Assembly: GCA_002839675.1 (NCBI GenBank)
Contig: PGYM01000001.1
Span: 982,683 to 1,046,682 of the forward strand
Source of the DNA: Methanomicrobiales archaeon HGW-Methanomicrobiales-1
GTDB taxonomy: Archaea > Halobacteriota > Methanomicrobia > Methanomicrobiales > Methanospirillaceae
DNA length: 64,000 nucleotides
Direction: 5' to 3'
The number at the start of each line of letters is the position of its first letter. Position 1 is the stretch's first letter. Shown here piece by piece: positions 7,289-36,401 of the stretch. The position numbers and the translations under genes were made by a program. The notes below the pieces were generated by a model. That model did not search any database. It saw nothing but the letters and a program-made list of their open reading frames with translations, and was not told where the DNA came from.

Positions 7289-8775
7289 TTCTTTCCCTCA
7301 AGTAATCTGTTCATTCCGGCGATCATCGCCTCGACACTCGCCATGATAATATCCGTGCGTGCGCCGCGAGAAGTAATTATCTTCCCGTCTTTACTTAATC
7401 TTACTGTCACTTCGACCAGTGCATCCGTGCCGCCACTGATCGCATCGACATGGTACTCTTCAAGCCGGATGTCGGCCAGTTCGGCAACCGATTTTCTCAG
7501 CACCGACATTGCCGCATCCACCGGCCCGTCACCGGTCGCAGCCCCGGTCATCTCCTCGCCGTTTACAACCAGCGTAACCGAGGCGGTCGGGATCATGTTG
7601 CTGCCCGAGATCGCGGTGAACTGCTTCATCCGGATCACGGGTTTGCATTCGATGGCAAGCACGGCATCGGCAACTGCCATCAGGTCGGTATCCGACACCC
7701 GTTTGCCTTCGTCACCGAGCTGCTTGATCCTTTTCAAGATCTCCTTGAGCTGCGGGGCATCCGGCGCGTATTTCATCTCGTGGAGCGCTGCCTCAACCGA
7801 TGCGGAACCGGAATGCTTGCCGAGCACGATACGCCGCTTGCGGCCTATGTCTTCGGGTTTGATCGATTCGTACGTGGACGGCTCTTTCATTACCCCGTGG
7901 GCATGGATGCCGCTCTCGTGGGTAAAGGCCATCTCCCCGACAATGGGTTTGTTGACGGGAAGCGGTACACCGGTCAGGCGCGAGACCAGTGACGAGAGAT
8001 AGTAGATCTTCTCCTTTTTTATCCCGGTCTTGTACCCGTACAGCACTTCGAGTGCCATCACGAGTTCTTCGAGCGGGGTATTTCCCGCCCGTTCGCCCAG
8101 CCCGTTCACGGTCACGTGGGCACACCCGGCCCCGGCTTTGAGCGCAGCCATAGTGTTGGCGAGCGCAAACCCGAGATCATCGTGGCAATGGATGGACAGC
8201 GGGGCAATCCCGCTGAGCGGCGGGATGATTTCAGCAATTCTCTCGGGAGTCAGAAGTCCGACCGTGTCGCAGAAGCAGAGCCGGTCCGCACCCCGCGTTA
8301 CGCCTTCAGAAAAGACGTGGTGCAGGAACTCCTGGTCCGCCCTTGAGGCATCCTCACCGGAGAGTTCGACAATCAGCCCCCGGCTTTTTGCGTATTCCAC
8401 GGCTTCCCAAGCCATTTCAGCCACCTGCTCGCGGGTCTTTCGCATCTTCTTTTCAATGTGAAGATCGCTGACCGGAATCACGAGATGGACAGAGTCCGCT
8501 CCGAAATCAGCAGCCGCATCGATGTCGAGATGCAGCGCCCGGACAAACGTGCAGATCTCTGCCGAGAGGCCGGCCTCCGAGATCATCTTCATTGCATCCC
8601 GTTCGCCAACAGATGCGGCTGCCGAGCCGACTTCTACAACGTCCACGCCAATATCGGAAAGGGCAGTGGCAATCTCAAATTTCTGTTGTGGGGTTAACGA
8701 TACGCCGGGCGTCTGTTCCCCGTCGCGTAAAGTAGTATCAAAAAAACGCAGCCTTTGGCCCAATAAAACAACCAC
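7285..8775 (-). CDS. 2-Isopropylmalate / (R)-citramalate synthase family enzyme
   Basis: An acetyl-CoA-dependent Claisen-condensing enzyme of the LeuA/CimA/AksA family. The 496 residues carry FFDTTLRDGEQTPGVSLT, the metal-binding SIHCHDDLGFALANT, GLGERAGNTPLEE, HESGIHAHGV and a C-terminal LeuA-type allosteric domain (from about residue 365). Methanogens have several paralogues (isopropylmalate, citramalate and homocitrate synthases) that I cannot separate from sequence alone. Cotranscription with ilvBN favours leucine or isoleucine synthesis (leuA or cimA). The GTG start at 8775 has a GGTGA ribosome-binding site 9 bases upstream; an ATG at 8779 is out of frame. Confidence 0.88.
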   Translation of the reverse strand: MVVLLGQRLRFFDTTLRDGEQTPGVSLTPQQKFEIATALSDIGVDVVEVGSAAASVGERDAMKMISEAGLSAEICTFVRALHLDIDAAADFGADSVHLVIPVSDLHIEKKMRKTREQVAEMAWEAVEYAKSRGLIVELSGEDASRADQEFLHHVFSEGVTRGADRLCFCDTVGLLTPERIAEIIPPLSGIAPLSIHCHDDLGFALANTMAALKAGAGCAHVTVNGLGERAGNTPLEELVMALEVLYGYKTGIKKEKIYYLSSLVSRLTGVPLPVNKPIVGEMAFTHESGIHAHGVMKEPSTYESIKPEDIGRKRRIVLGKHSGSASVEAALHEMKYAPDAPQLKEILKRIKQLGDEGKRVSDTDLMAVADAVLAIECKPVIRMKQFTAISGSNMIPTASVTLVVNGEEMTGAATGDGPVDAAMSVLRKSVAELADIRLEEYHVDAISGGTDALVEVTVRLSKDGKIITSRGARTDIIMASVEAMIAGMNRLLEGKK

Positions 8776-21586: not shown

Positions 21587-22077
21587 TTAAAAATCATCCT
21601 GTTGCTTTTTGTTTTGCAGCGGTTGATTCCCCTCAATCGTTGTAACGGTCACGTTTGTCGAGGAGATCGTAATCCGGTCTTCCTTTTCAATAGCGGTAAG
21701 GACAAGTTCGTTTAACCGGGAGCGCAGGATACGGCGACTGCGGGCATCGGTCACGTACCGCACATCCAGCGTGATCCAGTTGTCCGTGAGCGTAATGTAA
21801 GCAGACGGTTCAACAACTTTTTTGGGAAGATAATATTTTTCCCCGATCCGTTCGATTTCCGCATCAGCCTGCCTGGTTGCCAGGGCAGTTTCTTTCGTGA
21901 CAATGCCAAGGATGTTTTTGCCCGCTTCCAGTCGCTGTCATAGGTTAAGGGAATGGAGATCTCATCCCAGACAAACGAATGATCGCGGGTGTAATTGTAT
22001 AACGCATGGGTGATCACCAGACCGTTTGGTAAGATGAGCAGGCGCCCGGACGGCTGGTCTCGAAAGACTCAGCCCCG
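21587..22077 (-). pseudogene. Truncated, frameshifted mscS (C-terminal part)
   Basis: The sequence closely matches codons about 155-310 of the intact mscS at 23223-24194, including THALYNYTRDHSFVWDEISI. A net deletion of four bases near 21915-21930 (after the codons for DSDW) shifts the frame. Downstream, the old frame resumes in the alternative phase and runs to its own TAA at 21587. The 5' half is missing: homology stops at 22077, where the secreted-protein gene ends. This is a broken duplicate, not a working channel. Confidence 0.9.
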
Positions 22078-23016
22078 CACACCAGCTACTACGGTCGGAT
22101 TCGTTATCTCGAAAAACTTCGTTTGCGCACCATTCCAGATCTCAATAATCCCATAAGAAATGGAATCAATAAAGGTCTTTTCCCGCCATGTTCCCGTTGG
22201 TTTGCCGCTCCAGTCGCTATCCATGACACATTCGCTGAACCGCGGCTCTAGTCTGTACACGGTCTTTTCAGGAAGAAAAACTGGATCCAGATTATCTACT
22301 GTGGCTGATGAACCCGGACCAACAACAAGAGTGGTTGTATCGCCAAGAGGTGAGGTCATCTTGGCGGAGACCTGATAAGAGAAGTATTTGGGGTCAGCCG
22401 GGTTTTGGGAATAATGGACCGCGTAGACGGTTCCGGTTACCTTTGCCAGTTGAATCGCGTTGTTCGTGATACCCCGGCAGGGAATCTCCTTTGTTACAAT
22501 CTTGTAACCAGCAGTGTCCGGAAGTGTGGCTAATGCCTTGCTGTTCGATCCTCCCGGGGAAGCACCGAACGCGGCAGTTGTCCCCCACTGGCCATACGCA
22601 GGAACCGTGTAAGTATAGGGCCCGGTAATGGTGTGCGTTACGCTTCCCGGGTACCGGATTGCGACAAGGGCACCGTCATCAACCTCAATGTCCCATCCCC
22701 CTGATACCGGGTCTCCCCGCGATGCATCAGTTGTACTCCTTCCCGCCTGGATCTTCACCTGTGCCGGGTTTGTAATCCGGGCAATGTACGCGTATGAGGT
22801 TTTATCCGAGAAACTGAGCGCATAGGTGATATACGCGTCAAGAGCCTGATCGACCGTCATCCCGTCCGTGACCCCGGCTTTTTTCAGGTATGATGCGGGA
22901 ATGTAGTCTTTGAATTGTGCTCCTGATCTGACATCATTGCTGTCGACAAAAGCGGAAACGGGTGCAGGGAGGCTCACCGCAATGATGATGAGACAAAGGA
23001 TCAAAAACCGGTTCAT
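22069..23016 (-). CDS. Secreted protein of unknown function
   Basis: The 315-aa protein has a Sec signal peptide (residues 1-22, FLILCLIIIAVSLPAPVSA), no later membrane helix and a beta-rich mature part of about 290 aa. Segments such as YTYTVPAYGQWGTTAAFG and GGSNSKALATLPDTAGYKIV give no family I recognise. Two Cys (in EIPCRGIT and FSECVMD) could form a disulfide. Its stop codon lies within the first bases of the mscS remnant and its start is about 150 bases from the exporter remnant. The gene therefore fills the gap in a rearranged duplication. Confidence 0.65.
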   Translation of the reverse strand: MNRFLILCLIIIAVSLPAPVSAFVDSNDVRSGAQFKDYIPASYLKKAGVTDGMTVDQALDAYITYALSFSDKTSYAYIARITNPAQVKIQAGRSTTDASRGDPVSGGWDIEVDDGALVAIRYPGSVTHTITGPYTYTVPAYGQWGTTAAFGASPGGSNSKALATLPDTAGYKIVTKEIPCRGITNNAIQLAKVTGTVYAVHYSQNPADPKYFSYQVSAKMTSPLGDTTTLVVGPGSSATVDNLDPVFLPEKTVYRLEPRFSECVMDSDWSGKPTGTWREKTFIDSISYGIIEIWNGAQTKFFEITNPTVVAGVRG

Positions 23017-23163
23017 ACTTTTTCTTTCGAACCGGGTATAAAAAAAAGTTTTGTTTCAGGCCTGCGAGAAGGCTGGATTAAGACCGGCACTTGGGGCTCT
23101 TACTTCTCCCAACTCACCTCACCCGGATCCCGTGTTGGCAAACCAAATATCAACAGGTACATT

Positions 23164-23240
23164 GGCAATTGCCCTGCTCATTCCGGTTCTTGTCATCCTT
23201 ATCGATATCAGTGAACTGACCGCTATGTTTCCGCAGACCC
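23164..23240 (+). pseudogene. Fragment of small multi-drug exporter gene
   Basis: The codons IALLIPVLVILIDISELTAMFPQT match IALLIPVLVVIIHISIMAATLPQT near the start of the exporter at 20401-21030. Similarity covers only about 75 bp, then stops. The far end overlaps the last codons of the convergent mscS gene (stop at 23223), whose final residues are encoded by the antisense of this fragment. It is a duplication remnant, not a gene. Confidence 0.7.
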
Positions 23241-24194
23241 TGTCTTTTGATCCTTGCGCGAAGCGAGAGTTTCACCCGTGGTTGTGACCGTAACCGTTGT
23301 CGATGAGATCGTAATCCGGTCTTCTTTTTCAATAGCCGAAAGGATCAACTCGCTCAACTTTGACCGCAGGATACGGCGGCTGCGGGCATCGGTAACGTAC
23401 CGCACATCCAGCGTAATCCAGTTGTCCGTGAGCGTAATGTAGGCCGAAGGGTCAACAACTTTTTTGGGAAGATAATATTTTTCCCCGATCCGTTCGATCT
23501 CGGCATCTGCCTGTTTTGTTGTCAGGGCTGTTTCTTTCGTGACAATGCCTAAGACGAGCTCTTTTGCCAGTTTCCAGTCGCTATCATAGGTCAGGGGAAT
23601 AGAGATCTCATCCCAGACAAACGAATGATCGCGGGTGTAATTGTATAACGCATGGGTGATCAACAGACCGTTTGGTAAGATGAGCAGGCGCCCGGACGGC
23701 TGGTCTCCGGAGACCCAGCCCCGGATCTCCATTAACGTTGTGCTCATGAGACCGATATCCATGACATCCCCGAACTGGTTGTCAATGGCAATCCGGTCCC
23801 CAATCCGGTACATGCTGGTGATGATGACCAGTAAACCCCCGACAAAATTCTTAAACACATCCTGCAGGGCAAAAGCAAGGGCAGCACCGATGATACCATA
23901 CGATACAATCAGCGCAGAAGTATCCGTCACCCAGATCCGCAGGCAGAGAGCGATGATGAATATAACGGATATAATTGAAATGGCCTTTTTTGCGGTGTAC
24001 CGGGTTTTTAAGTCGGCTATCTTCCGGACAAGGAAGATACCGGTAATCACCGGGAAGACCAGGTAGGTGATGGTCAGGACAAGGGAGGTGGAGAAAAGAT
24101 CCATGACAACCGGCTCATTGATGATATGCGCAGCAGCGCCCAGTGCAACAGAGAGGAGAAGAAACGCAGAGAAGATGAGCAGTTGTCGTTTCAT
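23223..24194 (-). CDS. MscS-family mechanosensitive channel
   Basis: A 323-aa small-conductance mechanosensitive channel: it opens when membrane tension rises on osmotic downshock and releases solutes. About four predicted N-terminal spans lead to the pore-lining helix (IIGAALAFALQDVFKNFVGG), the usual RIGDRIAIDNQFGDVMDIGL beta domain and a cytoplasmic alpha/beta C-terminal region. The last residues (DQKTGSAET) come from DNA of the exporter remnant, so the C-terminus was remade by a rearrangement. It is intact, unlike its copy at 21587-22077. Confidence 0.93.
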   Translation of the reverse strand: MKRQLLIFSAFLLLSVALGAAAHIINEPVVMDLFSTSLVLTITYLVFPVITGIFLVRKIADLKTRYTAKKAISIISVIFIIALCLRIWVTDTSALIVSYGIIGAALAFALQDVFKNFVGGLLVIITSMYRIGDRIAIDNQFGDVMDIGLMSTTLMEIRGWVSGDQPSGRLLILPNGLLITHALYNYTRDHSFVWDEISIPLTYDSDWKLAKELVLGIVTKETALTTKQADAEIERIGEKYYLPKKVVDPSAYITLTDNWITLDVRYVTDARSRRILRSKLSELILSAIEKEDRITISSTTVTVTTTGETLASRKDQKTGSAET

Positions 24195-24230
24195 GAGTAA
24201 ATACCAGTAATATTCTCTTCTTTCTTTTTC

Positions 24231-24244
24231 GGGTATATAGATTT
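24231..24244 (-). promoter_or_regulatory. TATA-box promoter of mscS (23223-24194)
   Basis: Minus-strand bases AAATCTATATACCC lie about 40 bases before the ATG at 24194. The expected transcription start is near 24212. Confidence 0.5.
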
Positions 24245-24283
24245 CATGCGGGAGAGCCGGGAAAAATTGGATGACCGGCAGGA

Positions 24284-25159
24284 TTATGGTTTCGTTTCCG
24301 GAGATTGCCCTTTCATATCCGGTGACGGGGGAACAAATGAGGGTGGCCGGATCCCTGCAGATTTAAATTCCGCCCATGCCCTCCGCGTAACTTCAGACTT
24401 GAACTCGAACTCCAGCCGGAGGTCATTGACATATCCCTTTGCCCGGACACGCTTGTAGAACGGGAAGTCCTCGAAAAGAACCGTGTACGGATATTTTTTC
24501 GAGATGATCACGTACTTCGAAGTCACCAGCGCCTCTTTTAATATCTTCATGGCCTTATCCGCATCGGAATCCGGGTGGATGTAGAGGTCGATCACAATCA
24601 TCATGGCCAGGTCGCCGGCATTGCCACTGGTTACTGACTGGCTGAAGATCATGGTGTTTGGCATGGATACCAGTTCATCTGCAGGTGTCTGGATACGCGT
24701 AGAGCGAATACCGATATCTTTTACTTCCCCGTATTTGTCGCCGATGGTTACTTTGTCGCCGATCTGGTACGGCTTTTCAAAGATGATTACTATACCCCCG
24801 ACGATATCGGAAAACAGGTCTTTCAACCCGAACCCGATAGCCGCACCAAAGAGCCCCGAGAATGCAATCATCTGGGTCAATGAAGGTTCGATGACCGCGA
24901 GGATGATGTAATAGAGTGCGACCAGGTAGACGAGGAGCTTGAGGAGGGGGATGGTCATCGTGACGGATGTCCGGTACCAGCCGATCCGCTCAGAGACATG
25001 GACGAGAATAAAACTGAGCAGGTAGGACAGGACGTAGGCGATGACGATGATAAAGATGATGTAAAGTATCAGGTTTACATCGATGGTTTTTATCGGGAGT
25101 TGCATCGTGACATCGGCAGCAACATTCGCAGTAACATTGGAAAGAAGGGTATCTGCCAT
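24284..25159 (-). CDS. MscS-family mechanosensitive channel, ATPase-linked
   Basis: The 291-aa protein has three N-terminal spans, the pore helix (FSGLFGAAIGFGLKDLFSDI) and the KPYQIGDKVTIGDKYGEVKDI beta domain, then a short cytoplasmic domain ending in a Pro-rich tail (PPSFVPPSPDMKG). The ATG at 25159 follows the stop of the ATPase gene by two bases, and GGAGG lies 11 bases upstream; an in-frame GTG at 25168 is too close to that site. The pairing suggests that the ATPase and the channel act together. Confidence 0.92.
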   Translation of the reverse strand: MADTLLSNVTANVAADVTMQLPIKTIDVNLILYIIFIIVIAYVLSYLLSFILVHVSERIGWYRTSVTMTIPLLKLLVYLVALYYIILAVIEPSLTQMIAFSGLFGAAIGFGLKDLFSDIVGGIVIIFEKPYQIGDKVTIGDKYGEVKDIGIRSTRIQTPADELVSMPNTMIFSQSVTSGNAGDLAMMIVIDLYIHPDSDADKAMKILKEALVTSKYVIISKKYPYTVLFEDFPFYKRVRAKGYVNDLRLEFEFKSEVTRRAWAEFKSAGIRPPSFVPPSPDMKGQSPETKP

Positions 25160-25161
25160 GG

Positions 25162-26199
25162 TTACCACAACCTCCGGGTTTTCTTAAGATAATCCGTTAC
25201 CGGGCCAAGGGCAAATGGCTCGATACGGTAATACCCTGCATCCTCCCGGATCAGGCCCTGCTGGACGAGGCGGTAGAGCACCCGCTCGATATTCATCTCG
25301 GATCCGGCAATCGCGGTAAGATCCTTTGCATGCAGGGATTCCATGGACAGGATAACGGAAAGAATGAAGGATTCATTTGTGTCCAGGGAGATGGAATAGA
25401 CCGTTTCGGTGATTGCACTTAATGAGATTACATTATCTTTCAGGCTCTTATCCCAGAGCAGGATGGCAACCCCGGGATTTCCCTGTGCAATCCGGTTGAT
25501 CTTTTCAAAAATGATGTCTTCTAAGGAGATTTGAACGCGTTTTTTCCGGGGAAGTTTGTGAAGCGCTACCTTAAAATTCAGCTTTATCCAGGGAATTGAA
25601 ATTTCCTTTGCCATAAACGGCAGGTGCACCGTGCGGTGGATTACGGAGAAAAAAATCGAACTATCTGCGGTTCCCTCGTCGGCAAACCGGATCTCGCCGG
25701 TCTTGTGTCGCGTCAGGATCAACTGCTTGATAACCGGTGTATCCATCTTGTTTAAGGAGACAATGGAGGGGAAATACGCATCAATGTTCATCACGGAGGA
25801 GAGGTACTGCCAGCTGTAGGTGTTCCAGGTCGTAATGAAGATCTTTTTTGACGTGATCTGCGTACGCAGGAACGTATCAAGTACATCAAAACCACCAATA
25901 ACTCTCGTGGTTAAGAACTGGCAATTATCGATAAAGATGATATCTTCAGACATGCAGGAGAAATCCGGAAGATCTGATTGATGTAAGACAAAATCCAGGG
26001 ACTGGTAGTGTACCCTTTCGCCATAGAGACGCCGGATCTCGTCAACGAGTGTTGTGCGGCCACTCAGAGGACCTGCAATGATGGCAATATGGGACGGTGC
26101 ACCGGATTCTGAGCGTTCGATGGCTTCAGTTATCTCTTTTATTTCCCGTTCATAGCCGATAACGGTGCACACGCAATCTGAATTTTCCACTTCTGCCAT
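25162..26199 (-). CDS. AAA/STAND-like ATPase with noncanonical P-loop, mscS-coupled
   Basis: The 345-aa soluble protein has a Walker A-like GPLSGRTT at 43-50 and a Walker B-like IIFIDN at 87-92. The usual Lys of the P-loop is Arg here (codon CGC), so ATP binding or hydrolysis may be weakened. Beyond that lie a sensor-like region (KKIFITTWNTYSW), a helical region, and a C-terminal winged-helix-like end (ESLHAKDLTAIAGSEMNIER and YRLVQQGLIREDAGYYRIEP). This arrangement fits an archaeal ATPase with a winged helix, as in many regulators. It ends two bases before the mscS start, so a regulatory role for the channel is plausible but unproven. Confidence 0.7.
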   Translation of the reverse strand: MAEVENSDCVCTVIGYEREIKEITEAIERSESGAPSHIAIIAGPLSGRTTLVDEIRRLYGERVHYQSLDFVLHQSDLPDFSCMSEDIIFIDNCQFLTTRVIGGFDVLDTFLRTQITSKKIFITTWNTYSWQYLSSVMNIDAYFPSIVSLNKMDTPVIKQLILTRHKTGEIRFADEGTADSSIFFSVIHRTVHLPFMAKEISIPWIKLNFKVALHKLPRKKRVQISLEDIIFEKINRIAQGNPGVAILLWDKSLKDNVISLSAITETVYSISLDTNESFILSVILSMESLHAKDLTAIAGSEMNIERVLYRLVQQGLIREDAGYYRIEPFALGPVTDYLKKTRRLW

Positions 26200-26232
26200 A
26201 TCCTGCCAGTCCTACTAGTGAGATAAACGGGG

Positions 26233-26244
26233 GATTATTAAAAG
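26233..26244 (-). promoter_or_regulatory. Probable TATA box of the ATPase-mscS operon
   Basis: Minus-strand CTTTTAATAATC lies about 38 bases before the ATPase ATG, in the 97-base gap after ykgJ. It would give the ATPase-mscS pair its own promoter. Confidence 0.4.
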
Positions 26245-26296
26245 ATATGGAAAAGCCGGTTGGTTTTTACGTTACCGCAAGAACCTGTACAGGTTT

Positions 26297-27016
26297 TTAC
26301 GGTACCCGGGCAATCCGGTAATCTTCCAGTTCGCCGGCGTGATACACAGAAATATCCACAGGGCGGCCTGAAAGGTATTCCTGTATAGTCTGTTTGTATT
26401 TTTCCGGATCATGCCTTAGGTTACTCACGGTAAAATATTCGTGAATCGTTTCTAAAAAAGAGATCTGCTGGGAGAGAAATGCATTCTCGTATTCCTTAAT
26501 CTTCCGGGAGGTAGTAAGGCACTCCTCATCGGACAGGGCCGGGTCATATCGCCCGTGCTCACCCGGGTGGGCAAACTGTCGCCACATCACTTGTCCAGCC
26601 GCATCGGCATCCCGTCGCAACATGTGCGGGTAGATGTGGCAGATGGAGAATCTCTGGTCATAGATACGACAGTTCCCGTTCTCTAAAAACCAGCAGGATC
26701 CGGGCGGATCGTTTTTCATCCGGAGAGCATATCCCGAGACATATAACCTGCCGTTCTGGTCACAGAACTCCGGGTCCGGTGCGGGTTCAAAAGCTGTGGG
26801 ATCGATTGTTTCGAGTTTAGCGATATCCTGATCCAGGAGAAATATGTGATTGTTGATGGCACGGGTGCAGCAGGTCCCGCAGCCGGCGCACCGGAACCCG
26901 GTCGCCTTGATCTCTTCTGCCATTTTTTCAAGCGGGAACGCAAAAAGACGGTTCCGCTCCTGCATCAGCGCGACAATCCGATAGGGTAGGGGAATTCCTC
27001 CAGGCATGTCCATCAT
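26297..27016 (-). CDS. YkgJ-family cysteine cluster protein
   Basis: The 239-aa protein has the clustered Cys motif CAGCGTCC near residue 38, followed by CWFLENGNCRIYDQRFSICHIYP. These Cys are the metal-chelating site of the CxxCxxCC (YkgJ/Fe-S) family. Family members bind zinc or iron; the role is unknown. The start overlaps the stop of the upstream mscS by three bases, so it is the last member of the kamA-ablA-ablB-mscS-ykgJ operon. Confidence 0.82.
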   Translation of the reverse strand: MMDMPGGIPLPYRIVALMQERNRLFAFPLEKMAEEIKATGFRCAGCGTCCTRAINNHIFLLDQDIAKLETIDPTAFEPAPDPEFCDQNGRLYVSGYALRMKNDPPGSCWFLENGNCRIYDQRFSICHIYPHMLRRDADAAGQVMWRQFAHPGEHGRYDPALSDEECLTTSRKIKEYENAFLSQQISFLETIHEYFTVSNLRHDPEKYKQTIQEYLSGRPVDISVYHAGELEDYRIARVP

Positions 27017-28053
27017 TCCGCGTTTTTACGCATCCAGACATCAACCTGCTTAAACGGAATCTCGATCTTCTCCTCGGTAAACCTGCGGGCGATGCGGCAG
27101 TTCACATAATCCTGGACATCCCATGCAGAGTCGTAATTGTTCGTCCAGAGAATGAGTTGACCGTTGAGACTGGATTCACCGAATTCTAGAAAATACACCG
27201 ATGGGGCGGGATTGCATAAGACCCAGGTCGTCTTCTCCGCAGCCTCGTGGGCAATGGTGAGAAGGATATCTTTTACTTTATCCATATCGGTACCATAGGC
27301 AACCGAGAACGGGATACGGATTTTCAGGTAGTAATTTGGCATCGCGTAATTGATAACCACACTCGAGGTGACTTTCGAGTTCGGGAAGGTGACGATCTGG
27401 TTATCCAGCGACTTGAGGCGGGTACTTCTTGGGCCGATGCTCATGACGTCTCCAAAGAACGTATCGATCTTCACCCGGTCGCCAATCTTGAATGGCTTGT
27501 CCATTGCAATGATTGCCCCGCTGAAGAAGTTGCCAATAATATCCTGAGCGGCAAGGGCAAGGGCAAGGGCACCGATTCCTGCACCTGCGAGAAGTGGCGT
27601 GACATCGATCTTGAATTCCGCGAGTATCAGGAGGAATGCTATGAACCAGATGAGGTAACGCGCTGCAATCTCCAGGATAGGCAGGAGCCGGTCATCGAGA
27701 TCCGTCTCCGTTTTTTCTGCAACGAGCGTGCCATAGGTCCGGAGGAGATTGTAGGAAAAGACCGAGGCTATCCATGCCCCGAACAGGATGAATACTGCAT
27801 TGATCACCTGGCCGGTGATGAGCCAGTCCATGGAGGCAGGAACAATATCAAACTGTGTCAGGGCGACATACACCGACAGGGCAATAATCGCGACAATGAG
27901 CGGCGTCCCTATGGCCATTAAGATGATATCATCCAACTGGGACTCAGTGGCTTCTGCATGTTTCTTCAGCCACCGGACGATGACATAAGCAACACCGGCC
28001 AGGATCACCCCGACGGCAATGGTAATAGTTGCATATAAAAAACCATTATCCAT
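27013..28053 (-). CDS. MscS-family mechanosensitive channel, ablB-linked
   Basis: The 346-aa protein has about five N-terminal spans, the pore helix (AGIGALALALAAQDIIGNFFSG), MDKPFKIGDRVKIDTFFGDV and RSTRLKSLDNQIVTFPNSKV, then a soluble cytoplasmic domain. The start overlaps the ablB stop by 8 bases and the stop overlaps ykgJ. Cotranscription with the acetyl-lysine genes suggests it is the release valve for the solute made by ablAB when salinity falls. Confidence 0.93.
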   Translation of the reverse strand: MDNGFLYATITIAVGVILAGVAYVIVRWLKKHAEATESQLDDIILMAIGTPLIVAIIALSVYVALTQFDIVPASMDWLITGQVINAVFILFGAWIASVFSYNLLRTYGTLVAEKTETDLDDRLLPILEIAARYLIWFIAFLLILAEFKIDVTPLLAGAGIGALALALAAQDIIGNFFSGAIIAMDKPFKIGDRVKIDTFFGDVMSIGPRSTRLKSLDNQIVTFPNSKVTSSVVINYAMPNYYLKIRIPFSVAYGTDMDKVKDILLTIAHEAAEKTTWVLCNPAPSVYFLEFGESSLNGQLILWTNNYDSAWDVQDYVNCRIARRFTEEKIEIPFKQVDVWMRKNAE

Positions 28054-28951
28054 TCAGGCAATCCCCCGGTTCTGCTGTTTTGCTTCGGGCCTCTGGTCCA
28101 GGACTGCCTTCATTAAGTTTTTTGTACCACACGTTCATGCTCTCTGTGGATCCGCAGATATTGGTGTTGTTCGGGAGCAATCCCCCGAACTGGTATCCGG
28201 CCCCGGCAAATATTGCATTGATCGGCCCGAAACTGGCCCGGGCGATTGTATAGGCCAGCAGGATTCCCTCTTTTACCAGTTCTTTTTCCATTGCATGAAG
28301 GAGCGTGCTGGCAAAACCTCTTCCATGGAAGAGCAGGCCGGTGGCAAAATCGGTCACCTCGGCATTCCGGTTCTCTGCATCGATCTCGCAGGAAGCTACT
28401 GCTGCTAAAAGGTGGAATTTTTTAATTATAAAAAAACGGGTATTTCCCTGCATTGACTTCCGGATAAAATCAGGATCCGTAATGGGGAACGGGTAGGTTT
28501 TGAAAACCGAACGATACAATGCTGCTATTTCCTCCGCATTTCCTGCATGGGCATGCATCAGCGAGAATCCATCCGGCAGATTGTATGAGGATCTTTCCCC
28601 CGTATGCTCGAATGCTACCGCTAATGCATCCGCAATTTTTACCGATTCTTTGACCTCTTTCCGGTCGGGGTCCGAATATTTCGCCATGAACATTGCGGGC
28701 TCTTTACCCTGGAAAAAGTCCGGGACCGTGGCTTCGGTGATATACCCGGCATTTTCAAATGTTTCCACTAAGGATTCCGGTACCTTGACAAAGATTTTGG
28801 TATAGCCTTCCTTGTGGACGAGTTCGTCGGCGTACCGGATGATGTCGTGCGTATCGGGCGGGGAGAGTTTCATCACATAGACCCGGTTGTTGGAATGACC
28901 GTGCTGGACGTAACTGTTTCCCCGGTGCAGGACCATATCACTCGAGGTCAT
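28046..28951 (-). CDS. ablB: Beta-lysine N6-acetyltransferase
   Basis: Acetylates beta-lysine with acetyl-CoA to the compatible solute N-epsilon-acetyl-beta-lysine. The 301 residues start with [21 protein letters not shown], typical of AblB, and end with a GNAT domain containing [20 protein letters not shown] and [20 protein letters not shown]. The ATG at 28951 has GGAGG four bases upstream, which decides the start over the upstream ATG at 28975. It overlaps ablA by 14 bases. The substrate arises from ablA in the same operon. Confidence 0.9.
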
Positions 28952-30398
28952 CGGTCCTCCGTTCGATCCGGTCATTGTTCTCCGGGATAAGGGTAGTTGT
29001 TTCATCGTAATCTGCGAGCAGTTTTGCAACACCGACAATCTTTGATTCATCGGCCCGGTTGATGTTTAACTGGAGCTTGCAGGCAGCACAATCGCCGTCA
29101 CAGGTGATATGATCATAATTTTCCGGTTCCTGGTACGTGCAGATCATTCCCTCGTAATTGCGGAGGACGACCTTATGCACCGACCAGGTCAGCAGGTAGT
29201 TGGGAAAGACCGGGATCTTTCCACCGCCGCCCGGTGCATCGACCACGTACCGCGGAATAGCAAACCCGCTCGTGTGACCGATTAAGTTCTCCATGATCTC
29301 GATACCCTTGGATACCGGCGTGCGGAAATGGCTGATCCCTTCCGAGAGATCGCACTGGTAGAGATAATAGGGGCGGACACGGTTTTTGACGAGCTGGTGG
29401 ATGAGCTCTTTCATGATCCTCGGGCAGTCATTGATGCCCGCAAGGAGCACCGACTGGTTGCCGAGCGGGATACCGGCATCGGCAAGTTTCGCCACTGCGG
29501 CACGGGCGGATTCCGTCATCTCCTTGGGGTGGTTGAACTGCATGTTTATCCAGAGGGGATGGTGCTTTTTCAAGACCGCCACAAGATTATCGGTAATCCT
29601 GAAGGGCAGGACAACCGGGACCCGGGATCCTATCCGGATAACTTCAACGTGAGGGATGGCACGGATCTCTGTTAGGATCCAGTCGAGATACTCATCGCTG
29701 AGCATGAACGGGTCTCCGCCCGATAAGAGGACGTCCCGGATCTCCGGGTGAGTGCGGATATAGTCAATCCCGTCCAGGATTTTTGCCCGGTCCGGGATCG
29801 AATCCACATCACCGACTTTGCGTTTCCGGGTGCAGTGCCGGCAGTACATGGCACAGGTATTGCTGACCAGGAAAAGGACCCGGTCCGGATAGCGGTGCGT
29901 GATGCAGTCACACGGACTGTCTTTGTCTTCTGCCAGCGGGTCAGACAATTCGTAATGTTCGACAATCAGCTCTTTAGGAGAGGGAAACGCCTGTTTGAAG
30001 ATCGGATCGTTTTTGTAATCATCCACATCGATGAGCGAGAGATAATACGGGGTGATGCTTAACGGGAACTTCTCAATGGTCTTTTTGAGTTCTTCTTTTT
30101 CGGCTGATGAAAATTTTATTCCGAGGAGTTGCTGGAACGTATCGATATCCTTGACCCGGTGCCGTACCTGCCAGCGCCAGTCTTTCCAGTACTCCGGGGC
30201 ATTCATTGGCTCCTGCGTATTTTGCATCATACCCGGATCCCCCGGGGTTTCTGCGCCCTGGTGATATCCTTTCAGGATGGAGACAAGATCTTTTACCGTA
30301 TTTTTTACCTGCCCGCTCAATTGCCGGATCGTACTGGCATTATCGCTTGATGGATCAATCTTTGGAGCTTGCTTTGGTGCTGCTGAGGCTGTTGTCAA
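28938..30398 (-). CDS. ablA: Lysine 2,3-aminomutase
   Basis: A radical SAM, PLP-dependent enzyme that converts L-lysine to beta-lysine in osmolyte synthesis. The 486 residues contain [17 protein letters not shown], the CxxxCxxC iron-sulfur motif. The residues that bind the lysine side chain in the clostridial enzyme are present: Asp in [10 protein letters not shown] and Asp in [13 protein letters not shown], with the PLP Lys in GGGGKIP. A Cys cluster at the C-terminus ([10 protein letters not shown]) matches the zinc site. The TTG start at 30398 is supported by GGAGG nine bases upstream, so the N-terminus is longer than if an ATG is assumed. Confidence 0.93.
28956..28960 (-). promoter_or_regulatory. 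Ribosome-binding site deciding the ablB start
   Basis: GGAGG on the minus strand inside the end of ablA, four bases before the ATG at 28951. It supports that start over other in-frame ATGs. Confidence 0.6.
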
Positions 30399-30407
30399 AT
30401 CTTTTTT

Positions 30408-30412
30408 CCTCC
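30408..30412 (-). promoter_or_regulatory. Ribosome-binding site deciding the TTG start of ablA
   Basis: GGAGG on the minus strand, directly after the stop of the upstream kamA-like gene and nine bases before the TTG at 30398. This spacing identifies the rare TTG start. Confidence 0.65.
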
Positions 30413-30413
30413 T

Positions 30414-31538
30414 TTAAAGTAACCAGAATTTTTTCGGCTGGAAATCCGATAGTGCGTGGCGGTAATCGTCGAACCACCGGGCCACCGGGTTGCTCTTAAA
30501 AACCATGAACTTCCCGATATTTGCAGAATCCGCGGCCTGGTGGTATCGCATGAAAACGTGATCGGCGGTCTTTCCCACGATCTCGATCTTTCCCGTTGCA
30601 TGGGACATGACGAACCGGGCCCTTTTTGCAAGGCCCGAACAGGCATGCCAGGATTTCTGGAGAACTTCGTAGGATTGTTCAACCGGAACCTGGAAGAACT
30701 GGTTGCCGGTCGTTGGCCGGCACTGGAAGACATAGTACGGGGAGATACCGGAAAACGAGAGCTGGCGGAAGAGTGAGGTCAGGGTCTCGTGGTCATCATT
30801 GACCCCTTTTAAGATGGGGGTCTGGCTGACAACCATTACCCCGGCCTTCCGGAGCGCTTCTGCTGCATCTTTTGATACATCGGTGAGTTCGCGGGGATGG
30901 TTGAAATGCGCCATTAAGTAGATGCGCTTATCCGGTGTGCTGTACCGCGAAAGGACGGAAAGAAGATCAGGATCATTGAGAATCCGGTAGGGATTGTAGG
31001 CGAGCATCTTGCTGCCGATCCTGATGATATTGACGTGCTCTATCTCCCGGAGCTGGCGCAGGACCGATTCGAGCTGCCGGGTTTCGAGCGTGAGCGGGTC
31101 ACCCCCGGTCAACAGGATATTTGTTATCTCCTTGTGCTCACGGATGTATTCGATATTTTCTGATACGTCTTTTACGGTCTCGCGTTCGCAGGACATGAAG
31201 AGACGTTTCCGAAAACAGAAGCGGCAGATGCCGCCACAGACATCAGTGAGAAGCAGGAGGCCGGTCTGGTCATATTTATGCTGCAGGCCGGGTTTTTTGG
31301 TATAATCTTTTTCACACGAAGGATCCGATATTCCCCCGTTTTTGAGTTCCCGTGCATCGGGAATAACGATCTTCTTAATCGGATCGTGCCCGTCCTTCCA
31401 GTCGATAAGCGAGAGATAATACTCGTTAGAGCGGAACGGGAACCGTTCCGTAACGGTCTCCATCATCTCCCTCTCTTTGGGTGCGAGCCCGACAAGGTTG
31501 TCGAGCTCTGAAATTGACGTAACGTACTTTGGATTCAT
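30414..31538 (-). CDS. KamA-family radical SAM protein, altered substrate site
   Basis: The 374-aa radical SAM protein has TDVCGGICRFCFRKRLF, the CxxxCxxC cluster, and LLTGGDPLTLETRQL. It retains the PLP-type Lys in SHATGKIEI. The two Asp that contact lysine in the true enzyme are replaced: FQCRPTTGNQ has Arg where ablA has Asp, and FVMSHATGK has Ser-His where ablA has Asp-Ala. The substrate is probably not lysine; a negatively charged amino acid is one possibility. It is 15 bases upstream of ablA, so cotranscription is expected. The ATG start has GAGGT upstream. Confidence 0.85.
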   Translation of the reverse strand: MNPKYVTSISELDNLVGLAPKEREMMETVTERFPFRSNEYYLSLIDWKDGHDPIKKIVIPDARELKNGGISDPSCEKDYTKKPGLQHKYDQTGLLLLTDVCGGICRFCFRKRLFMSCERETVKDVSENIEYIREHKEITNILLTGGDPLTLETRQLESVLRQLREIEHVNIIRIGSKMLAYNPYRILNDPDLLSVLSRYSTPDKRIYLMAHFNHPRELTDVSKDAAEALRKAGVMVVSQTPILKGVNDDHETLTSLFRQLSFSGISPYYVFQCRPTTGNQFFQVPVEQSYEVLQKSWHACSGLAKRARFVMSHATGKIEIVGKTADHVFMRYHQAADSANIGKFMVFKSNPVARWFDDYRHALSDFQPKKFWLL

Positions 31539-31890
31539 TGCTTGACCTCGGTTATGAAGTTGTTCTCTGCCCGTCAGAGGGCAGGGGTCGAGCGGTGCGA
31601 AAATTTCCGGATTAAATATTAACAGAAATTGATTGTACCTTAGTGCACCACTCAGTGATCTCCAATATTGGTTTCACCCTATAAACCCTTTGTGTTTGTA
31701 CAAATCCCACATGTCAGAATTTCAGGTCAGAAAACGAAAACGGGGACCAAAAACAGGCCGGAATGATTTCCGGGATTTATTCTGACCGTAATATGACAAT
31801 CTTGAGGAGGATCGCAAGGAATTTCTATATATCACGGAATACTTATTGTGATAATTGAAATGCCGGTTCCCCCAAGAGACGGAGTATTAC
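31539..31890. other. Divergent promoter region between the kamA-ablA operon and a membrane protein
   Basis: No gene is supported. On the minus strand two TATA-like stretches, GGGTTTATAGGG and TTAATATTTAA, lie before the kamA-like gene. On the plus strand TTTCTATATATCACG precedes the small membrane protein. The region probably controls osmolyte synthesis, but I see no clear operator. Confidence 0.45.
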
Positions 31891-32262
31891 ATGCCCCTTG
31901 CCAAACGTCATAACCAAACCCCGACCAATAAGACCCTCAACGCCCTGGCATCGGACCTGGGAATTGTAACGATAGCCGCAGTGATCATCCTTGGGGTTTA
32001 TCTGATCGATACGATCACGCCCCTGGGAGAACCGGTCTGGCTTCTCTATTTCATCCCTCTTGTCCTGTCTTACTGGTCGGAGAGGGTGTATGCAATTCCC
32101 ACGGTCTGTATCGTAACCCTGCTCTTCCTGGTTGGCGGTTTTATCGTATCCCCCCAGGGAATTGAAGTATCCCAGGCAATGATTTACCGGTTTACCTTTT
32201 TCCTGTTCTTCATCAGCGCATCGATTATTCTCTGGACAATACGCCGGCGACAACTTCTCTGA
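31891..32262 (+). CDS. Small polytopic membrane protein
   Basis: A 123-aa protein with about four hydrophobic segments, including LGIVTIAAVIILGVYLI and FTFFLFFISASIILWTI, and an arginine-rich end (RRRQLL). Segments such as GEPVWLLYFIPLVLSYW resemble the N-terminal membrane sensor modules of some methanogen kinases, but no kinase domain follows. It could be a lone sensor module or a small channel subunit. The ATG is chosen because the earlier TTG at 31855 has no ribosome-binding site. Confidence 0.55.
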   Translation: MPLAKRHNQTPTNKTLNALASDLGIVTIAAVIILGVYLIDTITPLGEPVWLLYFIPLVLSYWSERVYAIPTVCIVTLLFLVGGFIVSPQGIEVSQAMIYRFTFFLFFISASIILWTIRRRQLL

Positions 32263-32671
32263 AACGGGAGACTTTTTTTCCTTGATTTTTTTAACCAGGA
32301 AATATTATTTTTAAAAATTTTTTTCCGCTACCCGGAACCAATTCGGAAGAAAACGATAGAAAGGAAAATTATTGGTATCCCCATACGCTTTCAGAATTTA
32401 CCGGGCAGGTCCGGGCGAATAATTTCCTGGATTGCTGGCTCAAATCGGTTTTTAAAATTTTATCGATAACCGGATGATACAAAGAATCTGATTTTCGGAT
32501 CTATTTTCCGTATCCAAAAAGAGGGGCATTCAGACATGCAGGTTTCAAGGTGAATTCGAGGAACATTTTACGATACGGGTAAGGTTAATCGCTCACTCCC
32601 GGTGTCCTGTCAATCAGGATATCCGTTATTATTCCGGTAATAAAAAAGAAAAAAAGAGAAACAAGAACAAT
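32263..32671. other. AT-rich intergenic stretch, no gene seen
   Basis: About 410 bp between convergent genes. It starts with strong T-runs (near 32271 and 32286) likely to terminate the membrane-protein transcript. No structured RNA or reading frame was found. Confidence 0.4.
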
Positions 32672-33784
32672 TCACGAAGTTTTCTTTTGGGGACTGATAA
32701 TTCCAAACAGCGCCCGAACCACCGGAATTCTCTTGAGGATCTCGTAGCAGGCAAAGGTCAGCAGGATACTGAAGATCACGATGGCTGCAAACTGTAGTGC
32801 CGGAGGGATGGGGAGCATCACCACATAATAGGCAATTGCCACCAGTATTGCCTGGTGAAGGATATAGACAGGATACGATGCGGTTGCCATATAGGCAGCG
32901 AAGGTGTTCTTTCGGTCAAACAGGCGCCTGCCCGTTCCCATGAGAGCAAGAACGCCCGTCCATCCGGTTAAAACATAGAGGATGGAATGCCCCCAGAATA
33001 CTTCGTCATGCCCCAGGATTATTCCGTACATCCCCATCACGCCAATGGTCAGGATGATCCATGCAGCCAGGAGAACGGACCAGTACTGTTCCAACCGGGC
33101 CAGGACAAAATCCATTGAAAATAGATAGTACCCGATGAGGAACATGACAAAATACGACAGGAAAGAATAACCTGTCACCATGAAGCCGACAAAGTTCAGG
33201 AGCCAGACCGGTATAAACAAGAGACCCAGGACCAGAAGACCTGCTTTGCCGTCATTGAGGTAAAGCCCCGCCCATCGCCGTTCCGCCAGGATTACGCCGA
33301 GTGCCAGGATTGATATAAAAAATAAAAAGAGGATAAACCAGAGGTGGTCAACGCTGAAATCACCCGTAATTCCGTTTGGCGGATCCTGAAGGGGGAGAAG
33401 TGAACTGAAGAAATGCACGAACGCACCGGCAAAAGTCCCGATATAGCCGGTGTGGAATTTCAGGGCAAAGTAGGCAATAACAGGGCAGAGGAGCACCAGA
33501 CCTGCAAGGAACGGAACAAGGAGTTTTGTGACACGCTCTTTGAGGTACACCCGGGGCGTTCGCTCCTGCAATGCAAATTTTGCACTCAGTCCAGCAATAC
33601 AGAAAAGCAGCGGCATGATCCAGGGCTCAACCGAGACCGTAAGACAATGTGCAGCCGTAGACGAGTAACTGGAAGAAATGTAATAGCCGTACCATCCTGC
33701 GCAAAATACCATTGCGGTATGGAATGGAAAGAGCATCAGGATGCACATCCACCGCAGATTGTCAATAAAATGCAACCGGACCAT
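32672..33784 (-). CDS. Acyltransferase-3 family membrane protein
   Basis: A 370-aa integral membrane protein with about ten spans of the OafA/acyltransferase-3 type. The N-terminal motif RLHFIDNLRWMCILMLFPFH holds the conserved RxxxxDxLR-like and His residues; the family transfers acyl groups to sugars or lipids of the cell surface. Segment DHLWFILFLFF is also typical. It is divergent from the H+-ATPase gene, and no polysaccharide genes are nearby, so its acceptor is unknown. Confidence 0.8.
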   Translation of the reverse strand: MVRLHFIDNLRWMCILMLFPFHTAMVFCAGWYGYYISSSYSSTAAHCLTVSVEPWIMPLLFCIAGLSAKFALQERTPRVYLKERVTKLLVPFLAGLVLLCPVIAYFALKFHTGYIGTFAGAFVHFFSSLLPLQDPPNGITGDFSVDHLWFILFLFFISILALGVILAERRWAGLYLNDGKAGLLVLGLLFIPVWLLNFVGFMVTGYSFLSYFVMFLIGYYLFSMDFVLARLEQYWSVLLAAWIILTIGVMGMYGIILGHDEVFWGHSILYVLTGWTGVLALMGTGRRLFDRKNTFAAYMATASYPVYILHQAILVAIAYYVVMLPIPPALQFAAIVIFSILLTFACYEILKRIPVVRALFGIISPQKKTS

Positions 33785-33936
33785 GAATTATTCTGTTATG
33801 TGATCCTTTGGAAGAATACTATTACGGTTTTATTCTCAAAATAAACGGTTCTTTATCCAGGAGCGGGGTTATGCATGCCGATTTTCTTGGGGGAGAAAAA
33901 AAGGATGTCAATAAGTAGTACCCAAATGAACGGTAG

Positions 33937-33946
33937 CATATTTATT
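33937..33946 (+). promoter_or_regulatory. TATA-box promoter of the P3A-type ATPase gene
   Basis: CATATTTATT lies 35 bases before the chosen ATG at 33981 and predicts a very short leader. Confidence 0.55.
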
Positions 33947-33980
33947 GAGCGATTGGCATGAGAACCGGAGCACAATAATT

Positions 33981-36401
33981 ATGAACGATACTGCAACACC
34001 GCCAGAAGCAGCTAAATTCCCTGTACCCGCCCCGGGATCCAAAACCGGGCTCGCCAGTTCGGAGGTCATCGAACTCCGGAAACAGTATGGCTTTAACGAT
34101 ATCCCGGAAGAGAAGAAACATCCCTTGCTCAAATTCCTCGGCTACTTCTGGGGTCCGATTCCGTGGATGATCGAGATCGCGGCAATCCTTTCAGCAGTTA
34201 TTTCTCATTGGGAAGACTTTGCCATAATTCTCCTGCTGCTCATGACCAATGCGGTGGTCGGGTTTTTCCAGGAACGGAAGGCCGAGAACGCCATTGAACT
34301 TTTAAAAAAGCAGCTCGCTCCCAATGCCCGTGTGCTCCGGGACGGTACATGGCAGGAGATCCCGTCCCGCGAACTCGTGCCCGGGGATCTCGTCCATATC
34401 CGGCTGGGGGATATCGTGCCGGCAGATGCCGTCCTTGGCACCGGGAAATTTCTCCAGGTCGATGAGTCGGCACTGACCGGTGAATCCCTGCCGGTCGAGA
34501 AGATGTCCGGGGATACGGTCTACTCCGGATCGATAGCCCGCCAGGGCGAGATGGATGCGAGTGTCACTTCCATCGGGGGAAATACCTTCTTTGGCAAGAC
34601 CGCCCGGCTGGTCCAGGCAAAATCCCCCAGAAGCCATTTCCAGGCTGCCGTTGAGAGGATTGGAAACTTTCTCATCATCCTTGCCATTGTGCTGGTCAGT
34701 TTTGTTGTCATTGTTTCACTCCTGAGATCTGCATCCTTTTTGGACACGATTCAGTTTGCCCTTATCCTCGTTGTTGCGGCAATTCCCGCAGCGCTTCCTG
34801 CGGTAATGACAGTGACCCTCGCTGTCGGGGCGGTTGCCCTTGCTAAAAAAGAAGCGATTGTCAGCCGGCTCAGTGCCATTGAAGAGATGGCCGGGATGGA
34901 TATCCTCTGTTCCGACAAGACCGGGACCATCACGCAGAACTCCATCAGTATCGGGGATATCCGGACATTTCCCGGGATTTCTGAACAGGATGTGATCATC
35001 GCAGCAGCACGGGCATCGAAGAGAGAGAGCAATGATCCGATCGATATGGCCATCTTCTCACGGTATGATCGCAGTACTCCCGTGCCCGGCACACCCGGCC
35101 CTGAAACCCTGGATTTTATTCCCTTCGATCCCGTTGCCAAATTTTCAAAAGCCACCATCCGGGGACCTTCCGGCAGCACGTTTGAGGTAGCCAAGGGGGC
35201 TCCGCAGGCAATTGCGTCCCTTGCCGGGGCGGATGGCACGATCGCCTCAACGCTGGACGAATGGGTGACAGGGTTTGCAGTAAAAGGATTCCGTGCTCTC
35301 GGGGTAGCGCAGACCGACCGTTCCGGGAAATGGCAGTACCTCGGCATTATCGGGCTGTTCGATCCACCTCGCGAGGATTCCGCTTCCACAATCTCGGAAG
35401 CAAAAAAACTCGGCGTGAACGTGAAGATGGTGACCGGGGATCACATCGCCATTGCAGAAGAGATCGCCGGCCAGGTGGGCCTGGGCCGGGACATACTTCC
35501 CCGGTCTGCACTCATCACCGGTAAAGGAGAGGATGTGCGGAACCAGCTGGAGGCTGCTGACGGGTTTGCCCAGGTGCTTCCGGAAGACAAGTTCCAGATC
35601 GTAAAAGTACTGCAGACGGGTGACCATATCATCGGCATGACCGGTGATGGTGTAAATGATGCGCCGGCACTCCGGGCAGCAGACGCCGGTATTGCAGTTG
35701 CCGGTGCAACCGATGCAGCAAAGTCAGCAGCAGATATTGTGTTGACAAAACCCGGGCTCTCGGTTATCATCGATGCAATCCAGAGGAGCCGGGAAATATT
35801 CCGGCGTATGGAAAATTATGCGGTGTACCGGATTGCCGAGACGGTCCGGGTTCTTATCTTCCTGACGCTCTGTATCGTAGTGCTGAATTTTTACCCGGTT
35901 ACGGCACTCATGATAGTCATGCTGGCGATTCTCAACGATCTCCCCATCATGATGATTGCGTTTGACAATGCACCGGTAGCTCCCAAACCCGTGCGCTGGC
36001 AGATGAACCGCATCCTGACCCTGGCATCAATTCTCGGGATTTTTGGAGTAATTTCAAGCTTCCTTCTCCTCTGGATGGCACGGGAATATTTCCACCTGGC
36101 CCCTGATGTTATTCAGACGCTCATCTTCCTCAAGCTTGCAGTCGCGGGTCACATGACAATTTATCTTGCCCGCACCGGCCAGCAGCATTTCTGGGAACGT
36201 CCGTTCCCCTCGCTTGCTCTCTTTGGCACGGCAGAAATTACCCAGGTGGCCGCAACTTTTATCGCCATCTATGGGGTCTTTGTCATGACGCCAATCGGGT
36301 GGGGACTTGCGATGATTGTGTGGGGGTATGCACTGGTGGCGTTTGTGATCAGCGATCAGATTAAGGTCTGGTTGTTCAGGAAGATCCATCCCTATTCATG
36401 A
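33981..36401 (+). CDS. Plasma-membrane H+-ATPase, P3A type
   Basis: An ATP-driven proton pump that may export H+ or keep ion gradients when methanogenesis is low. The 806 residues show the phosphorylated Asp312 in CSDKTGTITQ, TGE in VDESALTGESLP, TGDGVNDAPAL and the M4 segment VVAAIPAALPAVMTV, where PAALP is typical of H+-pumps. About ten spans are predicted. The ATG at 33981 is preferred to an in-frame upstream start; it is close to a TATA box. The family is usual in plants and fungi and occurs in some archaea. Confidence 0.92.
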   Translation: MNDTATPPEAAKFPVPAPGSKTGLASSEVIELRKQYGFNDIPEEKKHPLLKFLGYFWGPIPWMIEIAAILSAVISHWEDFAIILLLLMTNAVVGFFQERKAENAIELLKKQLAPNARVLRDGTWQEIPSRELVPGDLVHIRLGDIVPADAVLGTGKFLQVDESALTGESLPVEKMSGDTVYSGSIARQGEMDASVTSIGGNTFFGKTARLVQAKSPRSHFQAAVERIGNFLIILAIVLVSFVVIVSLLRSASFLDTIQFALILVVAAIPAALPAVMTVTLAVGAVALAKKEAIVSRLSAIEEMAGMDILCSDKTGTITQNSISIGDIRTFPGISEQDVIIAAARASKRESNDPIDMAIFSRYDRSTPVPGTPGPETLDFIPFDPVAKFSKATIRGPSGSTFEVAKGAPQAIASLAGADGTIASTLDEWVTGFAVKGFRALGVAQTDRSGKWQYLGIIGLFDPPREDSASTISEAKKLGVNVKMVTGDHIAIAEEIAGQVGLGRDILPRSALITGKGEDVRNQLEAADGFAQVLPEDKFQIVKVLQTGDHIIGMTGDGVNDAPALRAADAGIAVAGATDAAKSAADIVLTKPGLSVIIDAIQRSREIFRRMENYAVYRIAETVRVLIFLTLCIVVLNFYPVTALMIVMLAILNDLPIMMIAFDNAPVAPKPVRWQMNRILTLASILGIFGVISSFLLLWMAREYFHLAPDVIQTLIFLKLAVAGHMTIYLARTGQQHFWERPFPSLALFGTAEITQVAATFIAIYGVFVMTPIGWGLAMIVWGYALVAFVISDQIKVWLFRKIHPYS

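Follow-up and report, generated by a model that had tools for sequence, protein, structure and literature searches.

A KamA-family protein encoded beside ablA in a Methanomicrobiales archaeon as a predicted, divergent glutamate 2,3-aminomutase

Among the major osmolytes of methanogens is beta-glutamate, the biosynthesis of which in these archaea is unsolved. A 64,000-nucleotide stretch of DNA from Methanomicrobiales archaeon HGW-Methanomicrobiales-1 (contig PGYM01000001.1, positions 982,683 to 1,046,682; hereafter the window), lying in a genome to which Methanoregula come closest among named relatives, encodes immediately upstream of the lysine 2,3-aminomutase AblA a further KamA-family protein, P0001, with the features of a radical S-adenosylmethionine (SAM)/pyridoxal 5'-phosphate (PLP) enzyme. 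What does this protein act on? An earlier note on the sequence had proposed, from the residues of its substrate pocket, that it makes beta-glutamate. We consider P0001 most likely to be a divergent glutamate 2,3-aminomutase making beta-glutamate, a prediction from sequence in which we place moderate confidence. That its open reading frame is a real gene is supported by KamA matches in 42 of 60 close relatives, the orthologs being 53-93% identical to P0001.

The substrate pocket of P0001 and its clade

Residues were numbered after the sequence of the lysine 2,3-aminomutase (LAM) structure 2a5h, in which C125, C129, C132, R134, Q258, D293, D330 and K337 were verified to fall on the expected letters. 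The residue set of a radical SAM/PLP 2,3-aminomutase is complete in P0001 (the CxxxCxxC motif and equivalents of Arg134, Gln258 and Lys337, Table 1), and the earlier note was correct that the iron-sulfur cysteines (C101/C105/C108, matching C125/C129/C132) and the PLP lysine (K317, matching K337) are kept. It was likewise borne out that an Arg stands in place of the first of the two lysine-binding Asp residues, as R274 aligns to D293 in a gap-free block (PYYVFQC-R) found at the C-terminal end of a barrel strand (residues 266-272 in the AlphaFold2 model described below). The proposed replacement of the second Asp by Ser-His stands in part: Asp330 is lost and Ser-His is invariant, but LAM has one to two residues more in the loop that precedes the PLP Lys, and D330 falls opposite either Met311 or Ser312 depending on the alignment. 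We read Ser-His from these alignments as an invariant feature of the short P0001 loop rather than a strict one-for-one substitution of D330. The AblA beside P0001 has Asp at both the 293 and 330 positions, as had been claimed.

Residues R274, S312, H313, G316 and K317 are invariant in 41 of 41 members of the clade to which P0001 belongs, here termed RP/MSH (alignment A1), and also in 27 diverse members (alignment A2), among them rhizobial plasmid proteins, a Paenibacillus protein and representatives of a second archaeal clade. The one derived lineage of the clade to lose the Arg, which is gamma-proteobacterial, has Met in its place and Gly for Ser, a joint loss that is as expected of residues sharing a pocket, and probably has an altered substrate; its proteins in L061, L063 and L079 carry the motifs YQCMPVSRV and MGHDIGK. 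The most obvious other partner for Arg274 is Glu319, but the Arg is kept where residue 319 is Ala or Gln (L090, L095, L101, L053), and we therefore rejected a role of the Arg limited to that salt bridge. By the evidence of the alignments, the substrate pocket of P0001 is changed from acidic to basic, and this clade-wide.

The pocket bears directly on the idea that P0001 is a second lysine 2,3-aminomutase feeding beta-lysine to AblB. Its gene has ablAB as direct neighbors in Methanocorpusculum and many Methanoregula, as such a role would suggest, but both lysine-binding Asp residues are lost from P0001 while retained in the neighboring AblA, 25 of the 74 Methanomicrobiales genomes carrying the gene have no AblA-level match, and the lysine model described below fails P0001 (224 vs. 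525 bits). We regard a second lysine enzyme as very improbable.

Family placement and phyletic distribution

Family membership was tested by score against the curated cut-offs of TIGR profile models. P0001 passed a single KamA model, the generic TIGR00238 (202.5 bits vs. a cut-off of 199.2), and fell below the cut-offs for lysine 2,3-aminomutase (TIGR03820, 223.6 vs. 525.4), glutamate 2,3-aminomutase (TIGR04368, 221.4 vs. 650), the arginine 2,3-aminomutase BlsG (TIGR04468, 221.1 vs. 600), AblA_like_2 (TIGR03822, 204 vs. 396) and EpmB (TIGR03821, 184.1 vs. 369.3), the specific mutase models giving near-equal scores, all far under cut-off. The LAM_C domain (PF12544), present in AblA, is absent from P0001. 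The comparison with lysine and glutamate aminomutases and EpmB that the earlier note had suggested therefore places P0001 outside the curated glutamate, lysine, arginine and EpmB families, and no archaeal member of the curated glutamate family scored above cut-off among 393 genomes of the phylum. The sole sequence relative of P0001 in the PDB is LAM 2a5h, which was also the best match among solved structures (template modeling [TM] score 0.77, 32% identity; all others at most 0.45) to an AlphaFold2 model of P0001 built with 41 orthologs (mean predicted local distance difference test [pLDDT] 92.4, predicted TM score [pTM] 0.90). From its sequence we predict with high confidence that P0001 works like an aminomutase, and it is best filed as an uncharacterized KamA subfamily with a predicted function.

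In a maximum-likelihood tree of 88 rows, calculated with the active-site columns masked, the Arg/Ser-His proteins lie on one side (support 81/96, one change) and LAM, AblA, BlsG and their kin on the opposite side (98/95); EpmB and the Lys/Asn type described below are on long branches whose exact position is unsure. P0001 groups with Methanoregula and Methanocorpusculum inside Methanomicrobiales. The RP/MSH clade is large, comprising Methanomicrobiales, other archaea and several bacterial phyla, and most of the bacterial relatives form a well-supported neighboring group (100/98) of Nitrospirota, Nitrospinota, KSB1, Calditrichota, Thermoleophilia and Planctomycetota. We found no characterized member of the clade in the literature, where "KamA family" is named only in lists, and thus no different characterized activity among the proteins with which P0001 is placed. 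Among rhizobia, RP/MSH proteins are encoded on symbiotic plasmids (L110-L113, around 7000-8050); near the gene in L110 and L111 are encoded ATP-grasp proteins whose C-terminal domain is that of an L-amino acid ligase, accompanied in L111 by a major facilitator superfamily (MFS) exporter and nif genes, and it is possible that these two neighborhoods represent a beta-amino-acid dipeptide cluster. Two IMG/VR viral contigs (L197, L198) encode weak relatives of the C-terminal part of the clade (42% and 32%).

The distribution of the gene was determined with a profile of 103 clade-specific C-terminal positions run on the same 393 genomes. Matches were obtained in 111 genomes, eight of which (all f8/g52) were weak matches to a different type, leaving 103 carriers, and Methanomicrobiales have the gene in 74 of 94 genomes. 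A second KamA type, which has 605-643 residues and came to notice in L166 next to mscS-ablA, has Lys293/Asn330 in every copy read (L166:3685-5502, minus strand; L171-L178; L186-L193), the pair reportedly also present in the glutamate 2,3-aminomutase of Clostridium difficile. This Lys/Asn type was identified in 24 of the 393 genomes, none of which has the RP/MSH type (0 co-occurrences observed vs. 6.3 expected; p ~5e-4 by genome and 0.007 by genus, uncorrected for relatedness), and families f9, f10 and f21 hold both types, in different genera. Of the specific mutase models, that for glutamate gives the Lys/Asn type its highest score (265 bits, vs. 215 for lysine and 179 for arginine), and genes of this type have neighbors that include MscS (L166, L188), TrkH potassium transporters (L188, L189) and, in L193, a Na+/H+ exchanger; judged by sequence, it is a candidate glutamate 2,3-aminomutase of its host archaea. 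The control genome of Methanocaldococcus jannaschii encodes a KamA protein but has no AblA-level match and no LAM_C domain, so that its KamA protein is not an AblA-type lysine enzyme; M. jannaschii MJ0634 is of the size of the Lys/Asn type.

A third KamA type, with Glu at position 293, was identified in 10 genomes of f8, never together with the RP/MSH type; in genus g38 it is found in five sampled genomes, and one (G232) has the RP/MSH type instead. The Glu293 proteins (L151:3990-5066, minus strand; L152-L154) have 358 residues and the motifs FYCEPAPG and VIATNVGK, and are a second KamA protein beside AblA. Yet another type of ~440 residues (MVRNTGA/PSMSTDPGK; L180:4810-6135, minus strand; L181, L182) is encoded beside a class I tRNA synthetase gene in f8/g52 archaea, and resembles a Rhodococcus plasmid protein (L115:2914-4293) found in a biosynthetic cluster.

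The osmotic locus and glutamate as the predicted substrate

The P0001 gene is the first of a tight operon, a co-directional run that continues with ablA, which starts 15 bp downstream, ablB, mscS and a CxxCxxCC-domain gene (Table 1). Two further MscS-type channel genes are present downstream (25168-24284 and 24194-23223), and the resulting density of three such genes at 23223-28053, downstream of ablB, is unusual and fits an osmoregulation locus. Some ablA and eam genes are under the control of a Na+ riboswitch. Such control has been noted for a bacterial eam gene (PMC9337991), and a search of window positions 22000-34500 found no riboswitch upstream of P0001.

Table 1. Positions in the window of the P0001 gene, the genes of its run and the P0001 residues discussed
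Feature	Coordinates	Strand	Basis
KamA-family radical SAM/PLP protein of the RP/MSH clade (P0001, 374 residues), predicted glutamate 2,3-aminomutase	30414..31538	-	ATG at 31538
ablA, lysine 2,3-aminomutase, both Asp present	28938..30398	-	TIGR03820 776 bits (cut-off 525.4), LAM_C domain
ablB, putative beta-lysine N-acetyltransferase, overlaps ablA	28046..29050	-	TIGR03827 302 bits (cut-off 205)
MscS-type mechanosensitive channel, overlaps ablB	27013..28053	-	directly follows the RP/MSH gene in G031 and G034
CxxCxxCC-domain protein, overlaps mscS	26297..27016	-	directly follows the RP/MSH gene in G007 and G019
CxxxCxxC motif (C101/C105/C108), [4Fe-4S] ligands	31215..31238	-	C125/C129/C132 of 2a5h
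R110, LAM Arg134 (alpha-carboxylate binding in LAM)	31209..31211	-	alignment with 2a5h
Q239, LAM Gln258	30822..30824	-	alignment with 2a5h
R274 in FQCRP, LAM Asp293 position, clade-invariant	30717..30719	-	alignments
S312-H313 in MSHATGK, loop that holds Asp330 in LAM	30600..30605	-	alignments
K317, PLP lysine Lys337	30588..30590	-	alignment with 2a5h

In Methanoregula the gene following that of the RP/MSH protein is usually ablA, and adjacency to ablAB is also seen in Methanocorpusculum. The osmotic link is independent of ablAB, because mscS (G031, G034) or the CxxCxxCC gene (G007, G019) directly follows the RP/MSH gene in some genomes with no ablAB between; in several other genomes of the Methanoregula set the gene stands alone. 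Outside Methanoregula and Methanocorpusculum no conserved partner genes were found, the neighbors being generic (origin-associated proteins, sulfate permease, glycosyltransferase, methyltransferase and histidine kinases), and a mostly stand-alone gene of this kind suits a one-enzyme route or product. The same isolation would also suit a radical SAM/PLP enzyme of other chemistry, an epimerase or an enzyme of a specialized-metabolite or signaling product, for which the osmotic neighborhood is incidental, and the distant KamA relative L115, with Arg at the same position, does sit in a biosynthetic cluster. However, the aminomutase residue set of P0001 is complete, PLP lysine included, the linkage to mscS/ablAB recurs, and the RP/MSH type is exclusive with two other KamA types, leading us to judge other chemistry unlikely.

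Glutamate as the substrate is supported by the retention of cofactor and catalytic residues while the pocket charge is reversed, and by the invariance of Arg and Ser-His across archaea and bacteria. It gains further support from the phyletic complementarity with the Lys/Asn type, from gene neighborhoods that are osmotic independently of ablAB, and from the frequency of the gene in an order with known beta-glutamate accumulators. Beta-glutamate is accumulated by Methanogenium cariaci, M. anulus, M. jannaschii and Methanothermococcus (PMC6958431); M. cariaci and M. anulus belong to Methanomicrobiales, the order of the P0001 host, and that M. jannaschii has a KamA protein without AblA also favors glutamate. 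Beyond methanogens, beta-glutamate reaches 730 mM in the ammonia oxidizer Nitrosopumilus maritimus (PMC8269262).

In the mechanism that we propose, P0001 would convert L-glutamate into beta-glutamate by transferring its amino group from C2 to C3, and the product would act both as a counter-ion of potassium and as a compatible solute. Beta-glutamate is well suited to the latter role, being achiral and almost inert in metabolism. The substrate amino group would be held by PLP (Lys317) as an aldimine and the alpha-carboxylate bound by Arg110, as by Arg134 in LAM, and the side-chain carboxylate would be bound by Arg274, aided by Ser312/His313, a reversal of the side-chain recognition of LAM. The 5'-deoxyadenosyl radical derived from SAM would then take the C3 hydrogen, an azacyclopropyl-type rearrangement would move the nitrogen, and the hydrogen would be returned.

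The pocket logic is identical for a 2,3-aminomutase whose substrate has some other side chain, acidic or an amide, to which Arg274 binds (conversion of glutamine to beta-glutamine, or action on 2-aminoadipate or a similar amino acid). Methanogens also use beta-glutamine as an osmolyte (PMC1224877). The clade is of old origin, and in rhizobia its genes lie near an exporter and ATP-grasp genes of the L-amino-acid-ligase type, so that the substrate may vary by subclade. In Methanohalophilus, however, beta-glutamine is reportedly made from beta-glutamate by glutamine synthetase (PMC1224877), glutamate is an abundant cytoplasmic anion, and beta-glutamate is a documented solute of Methanomicrobiales (PMC6958431). 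We consider such a substrate rather unlikely for P0001.

Several points weigh against glutamate. Most Methanoregula are freshwater organisms, and to our knowledge beta-glutamate has not been reported in them. The glutamate 2,3-aminomutase of C. difficile reportedly has a Lys/Asn pair (Ruzicka and Frey, 2007), and not the Arg/Ser-His of P0001. The exclusivity of the RP/MSH and Lys/Asn types may partly reflect taxonomy. The beta-glutamate proposal of the earlier note is backed by phyletic complementarity, an order with accumulators and osmotic context, but P0001 does not belong to the known glutamate family, missing its cut-off by a wide margin (221 vs. 650 bits). A 2005 review stated that nuclear magnetic resonance (NMR) argued against a glutamate mutase, and offered on personal communication a coenzyme A pathway to beta-glutamate for which the enzyme set is incomplete (PMC1224877). 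The strongest of these points is the 1992 NMR study behind that claim, which, according to PMC6958431, covered M. cariaci and Methanothermococcus.

A broader proposition is that the RP/MSH clade represents an independently evolved glutamate 2,3-aminomutase which, with the Lys/Asn type, supplies methanogen beta-glutamate by a one-enzyme route, contrary to the 1992 labeling; to this we give an even chance. Should both types prove to be glutamate mutases, a problem that has stood since ~1990 would come down to assaying one enzyme, and many genes whose present annotation says no more than "KamA family" or "lysine 2,3-aminomutase" would gain a function and a sequence signature.

Comparison with known aminomutases

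P0001 shares with LAM and AblA (TIGR03820, 2a5h) the fold, the CxxxCxxC motif and the equivalents of Arg134, Gln258 and Lys337, and within Methanoregula the two proteins are ~31-35% identical by BLAST. It differs from them in having Arg for Asp293, in the loss of Asp330 in a shorter loop, in the absence of LAM_C and in its C-terminal tail (YHQA...WFDDY). BlsG (TIGR04468) has the KamA core and an equally short loop before the PLP Lys, but retains Asp293, has Thr at 330 and falls on the LAM side of the tree. EpmB (TIGR03821) and the efp/genX-linked AblA_like_2 proteins (TIGR03822) also share the KamA core, but represent other branches with Asp retained at 293.

P0001 was also compared with the two Lys/Asn types. 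Like P0001, for which we predict the same reaction, the C. difficile eam product (TIGR04368) has a basic residue in place of Asp293 (reportedly Lys); its reported Lys/Asn pair differs from Arg/Ser-His, and by score P0001 is not nearer to this family than to that of lysine 2,3-aminomutase. The archaeal type of 605-643 residues resembles P0001 in its basic pocket residue, KamA core, stand-alone or osmotic setting and complementary occurrence, but is distinguished by an N-terminal extension of ~200 residues, by deeply separate sequence and by its restriction to genomes that have no RP/MSH protein. On this prediction, the reaction catalyzed by the Lys/Asn-type enzyme of C. difficile would have found a divergent second solution in the RP/MSH enzyme.
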